NCBI RefSeq assembly: GCF_003350405.1
Contig: NZ_QQAW01000002.1
Coordinates: 248,001 to 312,000, forward strand
Length of the DNA: 64,000 nt
Reading direction: 5' to 3'
From: Gluconacetobacter liquefaciens
GTDB lineage: Bacteria; Pseudomonadota; Alphaproteobacteria; Acetobacterales; Acetobacteraceae
The notes below the pieces were generated by a model. It searched no databases. It had not been told where the DNA came from and saw only the letters and a list, made by a program, of their open reading frames with translations. This document shows, in pieces, positions 59,408 to 61,477 of the stretch. Position 1 is the stretch's first letter, and every line of letters starts with the position of its first letter. The position numbers and the translations under genes were made by a program.

Positions 59408-59743
59408 TTACGGCCAGCCGGTTGCCGGAATGTCGAAATGCTGGATCAGGTCGTGTTCGGGCAGTTGCGCCAGTTCCTTGGGCACGGCCAGGATCAGCCT
59501 GTCCTGCGCGACGCCGGTCAGTTCGGCGCGGATGGCGTGCAGGAGATGACCCGGCGCGGCCAGGATGAAACGGCTGATCGTGCCGTCGGTCACGCCGCGA
59601 TTCAGCGCCTCGGCGATGGTGGCGGCGAAATGTTCGGTGGGTGCGATGTGGTCGGTCGTGTGCAGCGCATGCCCTTCGTGGCGCAGCAGGCGCGCCGTAT
59701 GCGCGTCGGCGACGACATACGTCACGGGGTCGATCGTTGTCAT
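59408..59743 (-). CDS. Host-attachment family protein
   Basis: A 111-aa protein. VTYVVADAHTARLLRHEG, the FAATIAEALNRG helix and ISRFILAAPGHLLHAIRAEL...VPKELAQLPEHDLIQHF match the 'required for attachment to host cells' family, whose biochemical role is unknown and which is related to the archaeal/eukaryal release-factor-like fold. ATG 59743 is preceded by a purine-rich GGGAGAAGAAG. It is convergent with the RHH-like gene and downstream of tyrA. Confidence 0.72.
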   Translation of the reverse strand: MTTIDPVTYVVADAHTARLLRHEGHALHTTDHIAPTEHFAATIAEALNRGVTDGTISRFILAAPGHLLHAIRAELTGVAQDRLILAVPKELAQLPEHDLIQHFDIPATGWP

Positions 59744-59778
59744 GATCTTCTTCTCCCTGTCGAAGACGTCATCATCTT

Positions 59779-60582
59779 TCACCCGAATGAATGTTCCGGG
59801 AAGGGGGATACGCCGTGCGCATCATCACTTTCCGCGATCCGGCCTGCTATGGCGCAGAATTGCCGGCGGACTGTGCGGGCATGGGGGTTGAGGTGGGCTA
59901 TGGCGTGGGAGACCTCCGGGGCATCGTTTTGCACCATGGCGGCGGCGGCGCGGATGAGGTCGAAACTGCTGGTGCTGATCCGTTCGGGCATCGGACCCAT
60001 TTCGGAGAGGATATGGGCCAACAGATGGGTCAGGCCCTGTGCCATCGCGGCGTCTCGGTCGTGGGCATCGGGCGTGGTCACGATGACGTCCAGCCCCAGG
60101 GTGCGGCGCAGGAACGCGGCGATGGGGCCCAGCCGGATGCCGCGTAGCGGGCAGAGCACGATGCGATGGCCGGCGATGCCGTTGCGCGCGCTCTGCGGGC
60201 CGAACAGCGGGTGAGTGGCGATGATGCGGACATGTGCGGGCAGTTCGCGGCACAGGATGTCCGCCGGCAGGATCTTGACCGATCCGACATCTGCGACCAG
60301 CGCATGAGGTGGCAGGTGCGGCCCGATGGCACGCGCGACCGCCTGCATCCGCGTGACCGGAATGGCCAGGATGACGATCGGGCAGCCGGCTGCGTCCTCC
60401 AGCGTCGTTGCCGTAACCCCGGGCATGACGGGGCCGGACTGTAGGACGGGATCGTGGACGCGGATGCGGCAATGGGCAGCCAGATGGGCGGCGATCAGCC
60501 GGCCGAAGGCGCCGAAGCCGAACAGGCCGACCAGGGGAAGAGGAGCCGGGGAGGGAGAGGAGAGAGACGATCCGTCTGACAT
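59779..60582 (-). CDS. tyrA: Prephenate/arogenate dehydrogenase family protein
   Basis: A 267-aa NAD(P)-dependent dehydrogenase for tyrosine synthesis. The Rossmann motif GFGAFG is at residues 22-27. VILAIPV, VADVGSVK, THPLFGPQS and the C-terminal helical dimer domain are TyrA elements. It is shorter than bifunctional forms and lacks a chorismate-mutase domain. The ATG 60582 has only a weak ribosome site. The 150-bp leader carries a Tyr-Tyr short frame and two hairpins, suggesting attenuation. Confidence 0.87.
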   Translation of the reverse strand: MSDGSSLSSPSPAPLPLVGLFGFGAFGRLIAAHLAAHCRIRVHDPVLQSGPVMPGVTATTLEDAAGCPIVILAIPVTRMQAVARAIGPHLPPHALVADVGSVKILPADILCRELPAHVRIIATHPLFGPQSARNGIAGHRIVLCPLRGIRLGPIAAFLRRTLGLDVIVTTPDAHDRDAAMAQGLTHLLAHILSEMGPMPERISTSSFDLIRAAAAMVQNDAPEVSHAIAHLNPHARTVRRQFCAIAGRIAESDDAHGVSPFPEHSFG

Positions 60583-60624
60583 GGCACTGCTTTCGGGAAG
60601 CTGCGTTGCCAGGAGGACTCTCGG

Positions 60625-60658
60625 ATGTTCGACCGCTGACGACGCAGCGGTTGAACAT
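60625..60658 (-). promoter_or_regulatory. Hairpin in the tyrA leader
   Basis: ACCGCTG (60632-60638) and CAGCGGT (60645-60651), extended by ATGTTC/GAACAT across one G-U pair, form a 14-bp stem 43-76 bp upstream of tyrA. A second stem (GCCGC/GCGGC extended by TACGC/GCGTA, about 60661-60687) overlaps the Tyr codons of the short leader frame. There is no T-run, so it may act on translation. Confidence 0.5.
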
Positions 60659-60676
60659 GATAATACGCCCCCGCCG

Positions 60677-60727
60677 CTATGAATGCGGCGCGTAATACAG
60701 TCCGGAGAGGAAGGACGGGGTGCTCAT
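60677..60727 (-). CDS. Candidate Tyr-Tyr leader peptide of tyrA
   Basis: A 16-codon open frame beginning 10 bp after the ctaG stop: MSTPSFLSGLYYAPHS. Adjacent TAT and TAC codons fall where the first leader hairpin starts, and a Phe codon precedes them. It is followed by two stem-loops and then tyrA, the tyrosine biosynthetic gene. Ribosome stalling at the tyrosine codons would favour the downstream hairpin alternative. Its ribosome site (AGGTG) is modest. It could be chance. Confidence 0.4.
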   Translation of the reverse strand: MSTPSFLSGLYYAPHS

Positions 60728-60736
60728 GCGACGCAC

Positions 60737-61477
60737 CTAAGGAGATTTGGCGGGGCCGGTCAAGGGCGGCGGGGGCTTTGCCGGGGCGGCGACCAGCAGC
60801 CATGTTCCGACCACCTGGAGCGGCAGGCCGGCGACCAGCATCACGAACCCTGCCCAGTGCTGATCTTCGAGCGGTGTCAGGTCCCATCGGCACAGCACGT
60901 CCAGATAGGGGGCGTACAGCACGCGCGGCGCCGTCATCCAGACGACCGCCACCACTGTCATCGGCAGGCTGCCCAGCAGCGCATAGGCTCCGGCCAGCGG
61001 GTTATGCCGGATGACCCGGCTGCCCGGCATCAACTGGCCCCAGAACAGCAGGCCGGCCAGCAGGTCCAGCAGGCCCAGCGGGGCGCTGAACAGGGCGTTG
61101 GCCAGCGAACGGTCGAGGATCGAGGGCAGGCCGGTGGCGATTGCCAGCCCGCCGAACAGGGCCGCTGCCACGCCGGGGTCGCGGGCCCAGCCCGCGACAT
61201 GGGCGGGGCGACGGTTTGTCGTCATGGGCATGGCGAGCAGGAGGAACGGCGGGACGACCTGGCCCAGCACCATCAGGCCGGCGGTATATTGAGTCATCGA
61301 AGCCAGAGGGTCGCGCAGGCCGACGCAGGAGGCCGTCAGCAGGGCCGTGCCGGCGCCCGCCGCCGCCAGCCGCCAGGATGGGTGCCGGTGCCGGGCGGCC
61401 AGGAGCAGGATCGCGGTGCCGGCGAGCAGCCCGGCGGTAATCCAGCCGGCCTGGAAAAGCGGACTCCAGCCTCTCAT
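60737..61477 (-). CDS. ctaG: Cytochrome c oxidase assembly protein (CtaG, caa3-type)
   Basis: A 246-aa membrane protein with about seven helices of the Caa3_CtaG family, which helps deliver copper to the CuB site. Histidines and methionines in MTQYTAGLMVLGQVVPPFLLLAMPM and DQHWAGFVML support this. It ends in a Pro/Lys-rich tail. The start overlaps the SCO gene stop (ATGA 61474-61477). Last gene of the oxidase cluster. Confidence 0.82.
   Translation of the reverse strand: MRGWSPLFQAGWITAGLLAGTAILLLAARHRHPSWRLAAAGAGTALLTASCVGLRDPLASMTQYTAGLMVLGQVVPPFLLLAMPMTTNRRPAHVAGWARDPGVAAALFGGLAIATGLPSILDRSLANALFSAPLGLLDLLAGLLFWGQLMPGSRVIRHNPLAGAYALLGSLPMTVVAVVWMTAPRVLYAPYLDVLCRWDLTPLEDQHWAGFVMLVAGLPLQVVGTWLLVAAPAKPPPPLTGPAKSP

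Follow-up and report, generated by a model that had tools for sequence, protein, structure and literature searches.

A conserved tyrosine-codon leader, a probable translational attenuator, upstream of a tyrA paralogue in Gluconacetobacter liquefaciens and other Alphaproteobacteria

The 64,000-nucleotide stretch of Gluconacetobacter liquefaciens DNA analyzed here (the window; RefSeq assembly GCF_003350405.1, contig NZ_QQAW01000002.1, positions 248,001 to 312,000) carries on its minus strand, in this order, an SCO1-like gene, ctaG, a short leader frame with two adjacent Tyr codons, a paralogue of tyrA, and a Host_attach/baeRF-like frame. An earlier note on this DNA had described a 16-codon frame beginning 10 bp past ctaG and a tyrosine-pathway dehydrogenase as the next gene, and both descriptions held when the minus strand was re-read and the gene was compared with Pfam (Table 1). 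We found that the frame, its Tyr codon, its spacing, and the RNA helices around it are conserved and co-vary, and that the element accompanies the tyrA paralogue.

The window and the 80 loci whose TyrA relatives are closest to its own were all examined for the leader. Because only the best 80 of at least 463 stretches encoding a TyrA relative were kept, these 81 loci represent the closest relatives and not a random sample. The finder demanded TTGAC 33 to 40 nt upstream of a start codon, a frame of 11 to 26 codons, and a Tyr followed by 2 to 6 residues and a stop; the tyrA starts in the relatives were chosen by a script that favored a Shine-Dalgarno (SD)-like sequence. A leader lies ahead of the tyrA paralogue in 80 of the 81 loci, the exception being L021 from Acidisoma. 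The distance from TTGAC to the leader start is 35 to 39 nt in all 80 elements, and the leader stop is followed by the tyrA start after 84 to 110 nt. Leaders of 16 codons prevail (47 elements), followed by those of 15 (25 elements) and 17 codons (7 elements) and one of 22 codons. The start codon is ATG in 77 and GTG in 3, and the stop codon is TAG in 62, TAA in 17, and TGA in 1. The Tyr is the sixth-last residue in 78 leaders and the fifth-last in 2, and its codon is TAT in all but one, which has TAC. The 22-codon leader, in L019 (3841-4015), holds six additional in-frame codons (..ISTWSTWSTRSYYAPLI), and its Tyr-to-stop position is unaltered.

The earlier note had named the loss of the frame or of the Tyr codons beside tyrA in close relatives as the outcome that would speak against it. 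The opposite was seen, since 80 of the 81 loci keep the frame and a Tyr codon and L021 is the sole loss. Of the Tyr-Tyr pair described in that note, the first Tyr is present in 80/80. The second is kept in 65/80, and in the other 15 its place is taken by Arg, His, Ser, Pro, or Thr. A stricter scan of the rest of the relatives' stretches (L002-L081; 1,325,806 bases, both strands) returned 14 short frames with the spacing, none of them with the Tyr in place, and the same scan of the window returned three frames, one of which is this leader. A chance frame is ruled out by the contrast between 80 of 81 loci and none in the background scan. The codon-position entropies of 53 leaders (1.57, 1.61, and 1.48) show no third-position excess and thus give no independent proof of coding, so the case for coding rests on the frame, the start, the stop, and the Tyr codon. 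A model of the element, R1, whose training set includes the window sequence, matched the window at 60730-60628 with 94.7 bits. It also matched the element in 29 of the 30 loci outside the training set (E value of 6.7e-16 or better), a result that mainly confirms L021 to be without the element, because 27 of the 29 matched loci are near-copies of training rows. The conserved Tyr leader is linked to the tyrA paralogue.

Four helices (P0 to P3) and one alternative pairing, between the 3' arm of P2 and the anti-SD region, co-vary. For P1 and P2, this was measured in an alignment of 51 cores, obtained from the 80 elements after removal of 27 near-copies, L019 (for its insertion), and L055 (with a misplaced hairpin). 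In this alignment, 90.8% of the cells are paired, and the two helices together have 38 cells with two-sided changes (6.4 in shuffles; 0/500 reached the observed value), 7 pairs with two-sided change (3.7; 4/500), 19 further pair types (15.9; 23/500), and a score of 0.195 (0.106; 0/500). When the partners were slid by 3 columns 3'-ward, 71% of the cells still paired and 20 further pair types appeared, which reflects the repetitive, G+C-rich nature of the segments; other slides left 26 to 54% paired. The first stem of the earlier note was rightly placed, in that the 5' arm of P1 lies in the codons past the Tyr codons and its 3' arm starts in the stop codon.

In a partner-swap test, each segment of all 80 elements was paired with its own partner or with that of another species (2000 permutations). 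The z values were -7.9 for P0, -5.7 for P1, and -14.1 for P2 (each 0/2000). They were -6.1 for P3, the pairing of the anti-SD segment with the SD and start (0/2000; the two segments used for P3 have 3 nt in common), and -4.5 for the 3' arm of P2 with the anti-SD region (0/2000). The 3' arm of P2 therefore co-varies with two mutually exclusive partners in this test, and the 5' part of the P3 region (R5) is also complementary to it. Eight other pairings, five of them set as controls, gave z values of -1.0 to +3.5, and the positive values mean that the statistic carries a bias from relatedness or composition. Compensating changes in P0 are clear in the duplex listing for L028, L045, L051, and L077. 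Taken by itself, the fold of the window sequence is only modestly more stable than those of its shuffles (z of -2.16). Rfam 15, T-box included, gave three matches in 60000-61200 of the window, all far under the gathering score, and no match at the element in 13 related loci; a known riboswitch or T-box was rejected on this ground.

Table 1. Features of the leader and its surroundings (window coordinates)
Feature	Position	Strand	Description and evidence
ctaG	60737-61477	-	Pfam Caa3_CtaG
Promoter-like pair	60735-60763	-	TTGACC 60763-60758; poor -10 TTAGGT 60740-60735, 17 nt apart; TTGAC spacing in all 80 elements
Leader frame MSTPSFLSGLYYAPHS	60677-60727	-	16 codons; ATG 60727-60725, stop TAG 60679-60677; reading of the sequence
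Tyr codons TAT TAC	60692-60697	-	TAT 60697-60695, TAC 60694-60692; TAT is the sixth-last codon before the stop
Stem P1	60672-60690	-	60690-60685 with 60677-60672, around the stop codon; two-sided changes at 4/6 pairs, 51 sequences
Post-stop linker, P0 partner of the leader start region	60657-60671	-	Duplex listing, 80 elements; partner-swap test
Stem-loop P2	60627-60656	-	GTTCAACCGCTG / CAGCGGTCGAAC; two-sided changes at 3/9 pairs, 92.5% of cells paired
P3, self-pairing over the tyrA start	60580-60626	-	Partner-swap test; paired in the minimum-energy fold
tyrA paralogue	59779-60582	-	Prephenate/arogenate dehydrogenase-like, 267 aa, start at 60582; Pfam PDH_N, 56.1 bits, E value of 3.9e-15

The tyrA paralogue matches NCBIfam TyrA-type models, but under their curated cut-offs, and the closest named locus among the matches listed is that of G. 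dulcium LMG 1728, with a TyrA of 93% identity. The genome encodes a second, canonical TyrA elsewhere (G000:C1:24955; a 326-aa frame at 1407-2387 of the stretch L160), and a TTGAC scan of this 3.3-kb stretch on the strand of the gene found no comparable leader. Downstream of the tyrA paralogue in the window, the frame at 59408-59782 is similar to Host_attach/baeRF family 12.

The leader accompanies the gene. In G. diazotrophicus (L007), the leader is retained and the upstream sequence, by eye, is other than ctaG; this locus and the more distant loci that were read, which likewise carry the leader and by eye have no ctaG upstream, rule out that the leader is part of ctaG. Of 14 genomes of the genus, nine contain the tyrA paralogue (eight full matches; G011 matches at residues 10-103 only), and the leader occurs in the same nine (E value of 3.7e-23 or better), while the remaining five lack both, save for a 21-bit match in G009. 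In G011 (L161), the leader ..LAGLYYAPLS is kept ahead of a decayed tyrA paralogue whose similarity stops after about residue 103. Among 385 genomes of the class, 11 encode a TyrA of this kind (E value of 1e-30 or better with L010 as the query); five of these have the leader, and in the other six, none was found in the 330 nt upstream of the gene. In a midpoint-rooted tree, the six leader-free rows, several of them on long branches, fall outside the leader-bearing group (fork support 84/99, drawn open). Most of the gene's more remote relatives have no such leader. The leader label changes twice on this tree, compared with 7.7 times in shuffles (0/500 as low), which fits one gain and one loss, in L021. 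In a section of the tree with weak support, the Gluconacetobacter rows cluster with those from other families, which suggests that the gene and the leader may have moved together. The element and its TyrA also occur in L046, a record labeled Solirubrobacterales (Actinomycetota) that sits inside an otherwise proteobacterial group and is probably a mis-binned contig.

Three features go beyond the earlier note: the TTGAC spacing together with the near-leaderless start, and two pairings, one between the post-stop linker and the start of the leader and the other across the start of tyrA. The promoter-like pair sits within the 3' end of ctaG, and its -10 hexamer was assigned by eye. Since TTGAC stands 35 to 39 nt ahead of the leader start and the hexamers are 17 nt apart, the leader is probably at the 5' end of the mRNA, and we expect transcription to start at the ATG or a few bases before it. 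At the other end of the element, an SD-like sequence precedes tyrA in 71/80 (by a loose pattern), opening the tyrA start region costs about 10 to 11 kcal/mol on average, and the hairpin that covers it is the co-varying P3. No terminator-like site was found in 60400-60900 of the window, a U-rich tail directly follows P2 in 4/80, and TTTTT occurs anywhere between the leader stop and tyrA in 5/80. An intrinsic terminator is unsupported by these counts. Translational control is probably the likelier output, because U-runs are rare and P3 shows covariation; this agrees with the earlier note, which had preferred it for want of a U-run.

We suggest, at a probability of roughly 0.75, that the element upstream of the tyrA paralogue is a ribosome-mediated attenuator of translation and serves as a sensor of charged tRNA-Tyr. 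We infer the start point, the translation of the leader, the direction of the response, the relay, and a translational rather than transcriptional output as follows. Transcription would begin at or beside the leader ATG. With plentiful tyrosine, the ribosome would pass the Tyr codons and reach the stop codon, covering the 3' arm of P1; P2 would then form, P3 would close over the tyrA start, and the gene would be off. If the leader is not translated, P0 and P1 would form, and the gene would likewise be off. When Tyr-tRNA is scarce, the ribosome would wait at the Tyr codon and, given typical footprint sizes, its front would lie on the 5' arm of P1. The post-stop segment (AGCGG/GGCGG) so freed could pair with the 5' arm of P2 (CCGCU/CCGCC), and the 3' arm of P2 thereby released would pair with the anti-SD segment, allowing tyrA to be translated.

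When the first Tyr codon occupies the A site, the ribosome should cover the RNA through the 5' arm of P1, and a ribosome at the stop codon should cover it through the 3' arm. When the 80 elements were folded with these blocks, opening the tyrA start took 1.33 kcal/mol less with the ribosome stalled at Tyr than with it at the stop; the cost was lower in 47, higher in 14, and within 0.5 in 19 (Wilcoxon p of 7.4e-7, with species treated as independent). At the stage where the RNA has emerged no further than the 5' arm of P2, this arm paired with the post-stop segment at a mean of 0.69 in the Tyr-stalled state, 0.05 if no ribosome was present, and 0 if the ribosome stood at the stop.

Several results weigh against the proposed attenuator. 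In the same folding, the tyrA start is on average equally likely to be unpaired in every state (0.36-0.37). The opening energy does not change after the post-stop segment is shuffled (9.83 vs 9.79), and shuffled segments still pair with the emerging P2 arm at 0.44 in the Tyr-stalled state, compared with the real 0.69. With the SD not transcribed, the pairing of the 3' arm of P2 with the anti-SD segment is lower in the Tyr-stalled state (0.31 vs 0.39), and P2 itself rises (0.57 vs 0.45); the former pairing gains in 15/80 elements and loses in 30/80. Equilibrium folding of the relay, with the post-stop shuffle as the control, therefore failed to produce the switch, and we treat the relay as a kinetic hypothesis. 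The pairing of the post-stop segment with the 5' arm of P2 is conserved and shows no covariation (partner-swap z of -0.8). P0 is weak in the window (-4.8 kcal/mol), as it is in L036, L075, and L080, for example; the SD of tyrA in the window is poor; and a consensus scan called no minus-strand promoter in 60400-60900. Finally, 15/80 leaders have a single Tyr in place, and L021 has the tyrA paralogue without any leader.

The same sensor might have a transcriptional output, with P2 or an untranslated stretch triggering termination that is either intrinsic without a U-run or Rho-dependent if tyrA is untranslated. The looser relatives with Trp-Tyr-Phe (WYF) and Val-Tyr-Phe (VYF) leaders described below carry hairpins with T-rich tails (by eye: L125, L126, L128, L129, and L131), which means that in these relatives a comparable sensor may act through termination. 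However, the U-run counts given above for the 80 elements oppose it, as does the covariation of P3 at the start of tyrA, a helix for which a pure terminator would have no use, and we consider a transcriptional output unlikely.

In an arrest peptide, the ribosome would be stalled by the nascent chain and not by a lack of charged tRNA-Tyr, with free tyrosine or another metabolite as a possible trigger; this seems less probable still. It would fit the single invariant Tyr at a fixed distance from the stop and for the Pro three residues past it in 39 of 53 non-redundant leaders, but the residues ahead of the Tyr vary widely, those past it overlap the 5' arm of P1 and co-vary as RNA, and the Tyr-Phe (YF) or WYF codons of the looser relatives are better suited to codon reading. 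We give very little credence to an RNA element that binds a ligand or protein and in which the frame is incidental. Such an element is in line with the strong conservation of P2 and the covariation of P0; against it stand the frame, start, stop, and Tyr codon in 80 of the 81 loci, the in-frame insertion of L019, and the lack of any Rfam family at the gathering score here.

In the trp, his, and pheA leader attenuators of E. coli, the position of the ribosome on regulatory codons selects between exclusive helices, and the output is transcription termination. We know of no Tyr member of this type, and the intrinsic terminator of the trp/his type, a hairpin with a U-run, is not a feature of the present element given its few U-rich tails. 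In erm-type translational attenuators, a ribosome that stalls in the leader causes the hairpin covering the SD of the following gene to open; these sense macrolides and no amino acid, whereas the attenuator proposed for tyrA would sense an amino acid. The rhizobial trpL is a short frame that, as here, includes codons for the amino acid made by the pathway. This trp attenuator (trpL/rnTrpL of Sinorhizobium meliloti) is, according to the available part of its description, also alphaproteobacterial with a leader frame at the mRNA 5' end, but it involves Trp and trpE and a transcription attenuation that yields the small RNA rnTrpL (PMC10117765). The present element differs in its Tyr codons, in tyrA, in the pairing over the tyrA start, and in the rarity of U-runs. 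The uORFC-8-2 before cysS of Rhodobacterales is, in the part of the source at hand, another leader frame of Alphaproteobacteria that was found comparatively and whose first stem contains tandem codons, but it has Cys codons within the stem, a U-run terminator in the consensus, and another gene downstream (PMC8632094). A putative attenuator has been predicted ahead of an alphaproteobacterial tyrA in Agrobacterium (hisHb>tyrA); in the accessible text, that tyrA lies in an operon, the source is a terminator/antiterminator database, and no leader peptide is described (PMC1173090). Tyrosine operons are placed under T-boxes in the available part of a comparative paper (PMC1262725), and the term "tyr" is absent from the available text of PMC11109978, as is anything on Tyr leaders from that of PMC4117421, PMC2965389, and PMC4833913. 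We found no description of a Tyr leader before an alphaproteobacterial tyrA in the open literature searched, as far as its texts were accessible; a prior prediction in the surveys Vitreschak 2004 and Lopatovskaya 2010 is possible.

Samples of the class and phylum searched with R1 and a pattern gave related elements before other genes, whose labels are readings of the sequences. A Tyr-Tyr leader in L130 (1501-1614) precedes a canonical-type TyrA, and its frame as read overruns the usual stop. A VYF leader (L131) and another Tyr-Tyr leader (L189) precede frames resembling tyrosyl-tRNA synthetase, and a Cys-Tyr-Phe leader (L187) precedes a tyrA of the kind found in the window. Leaders that end in ..WYFT.. 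and have the same TTGAC spacing occur before GNAT-like frames (L125, L128, L129, and L179) and an S4-like frame (L126), L173 has one more (match near 1501), and a TYFWLYL leader in L188 precedes another GNAT-like frame. T-rich tails follow the hairpins of the WYF and VYF leaders by eye, and the WYF leaders are possibly attenuators that respond to all the aromatic amino acids. With up to one mismatch, the WYF pattern occurred at 13 places, spread over 12 of the 385 genomes, and its reversed control occurred at about 30, so the search is no evidence by itself. Seven of these places were read: four are the known loci, L173 and L179 are new leaders, and L176 has no leader. Of the weaker R1 matches, those read from L132 onward (L132-L142, L144, L145, and L147) have no recognizable leader with the TTGAC spacing and were treated as chance.

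We tentatively suggest, at somewhat less than even odds, a modular alphaproteobacterial family of leaderless aromatic-amino-acid leaders with one front end, YY, YF, or WYF codons, and different outputs. The shared front end would consist of a promoter fused to the leader start, a start codon locked by the post-stop linker, and P1 around the stop. Mobile tyrA paralogues would have a lid over their start as the output, and tyrS-like and GNAT-like genes would be preceded by terminators. If this is true, the start-codon lock would make the response a one-shot decision by the first ribosome. The element before the tyrA paralogue would itself be a Tyr-specific, probably translational, leaderless attenuator used across many alphaproteobacterial families and an example of an attenuator that remains attached to the gene of an accessory enzyme, and it would offer a simple route to finding more aromatic leaders.
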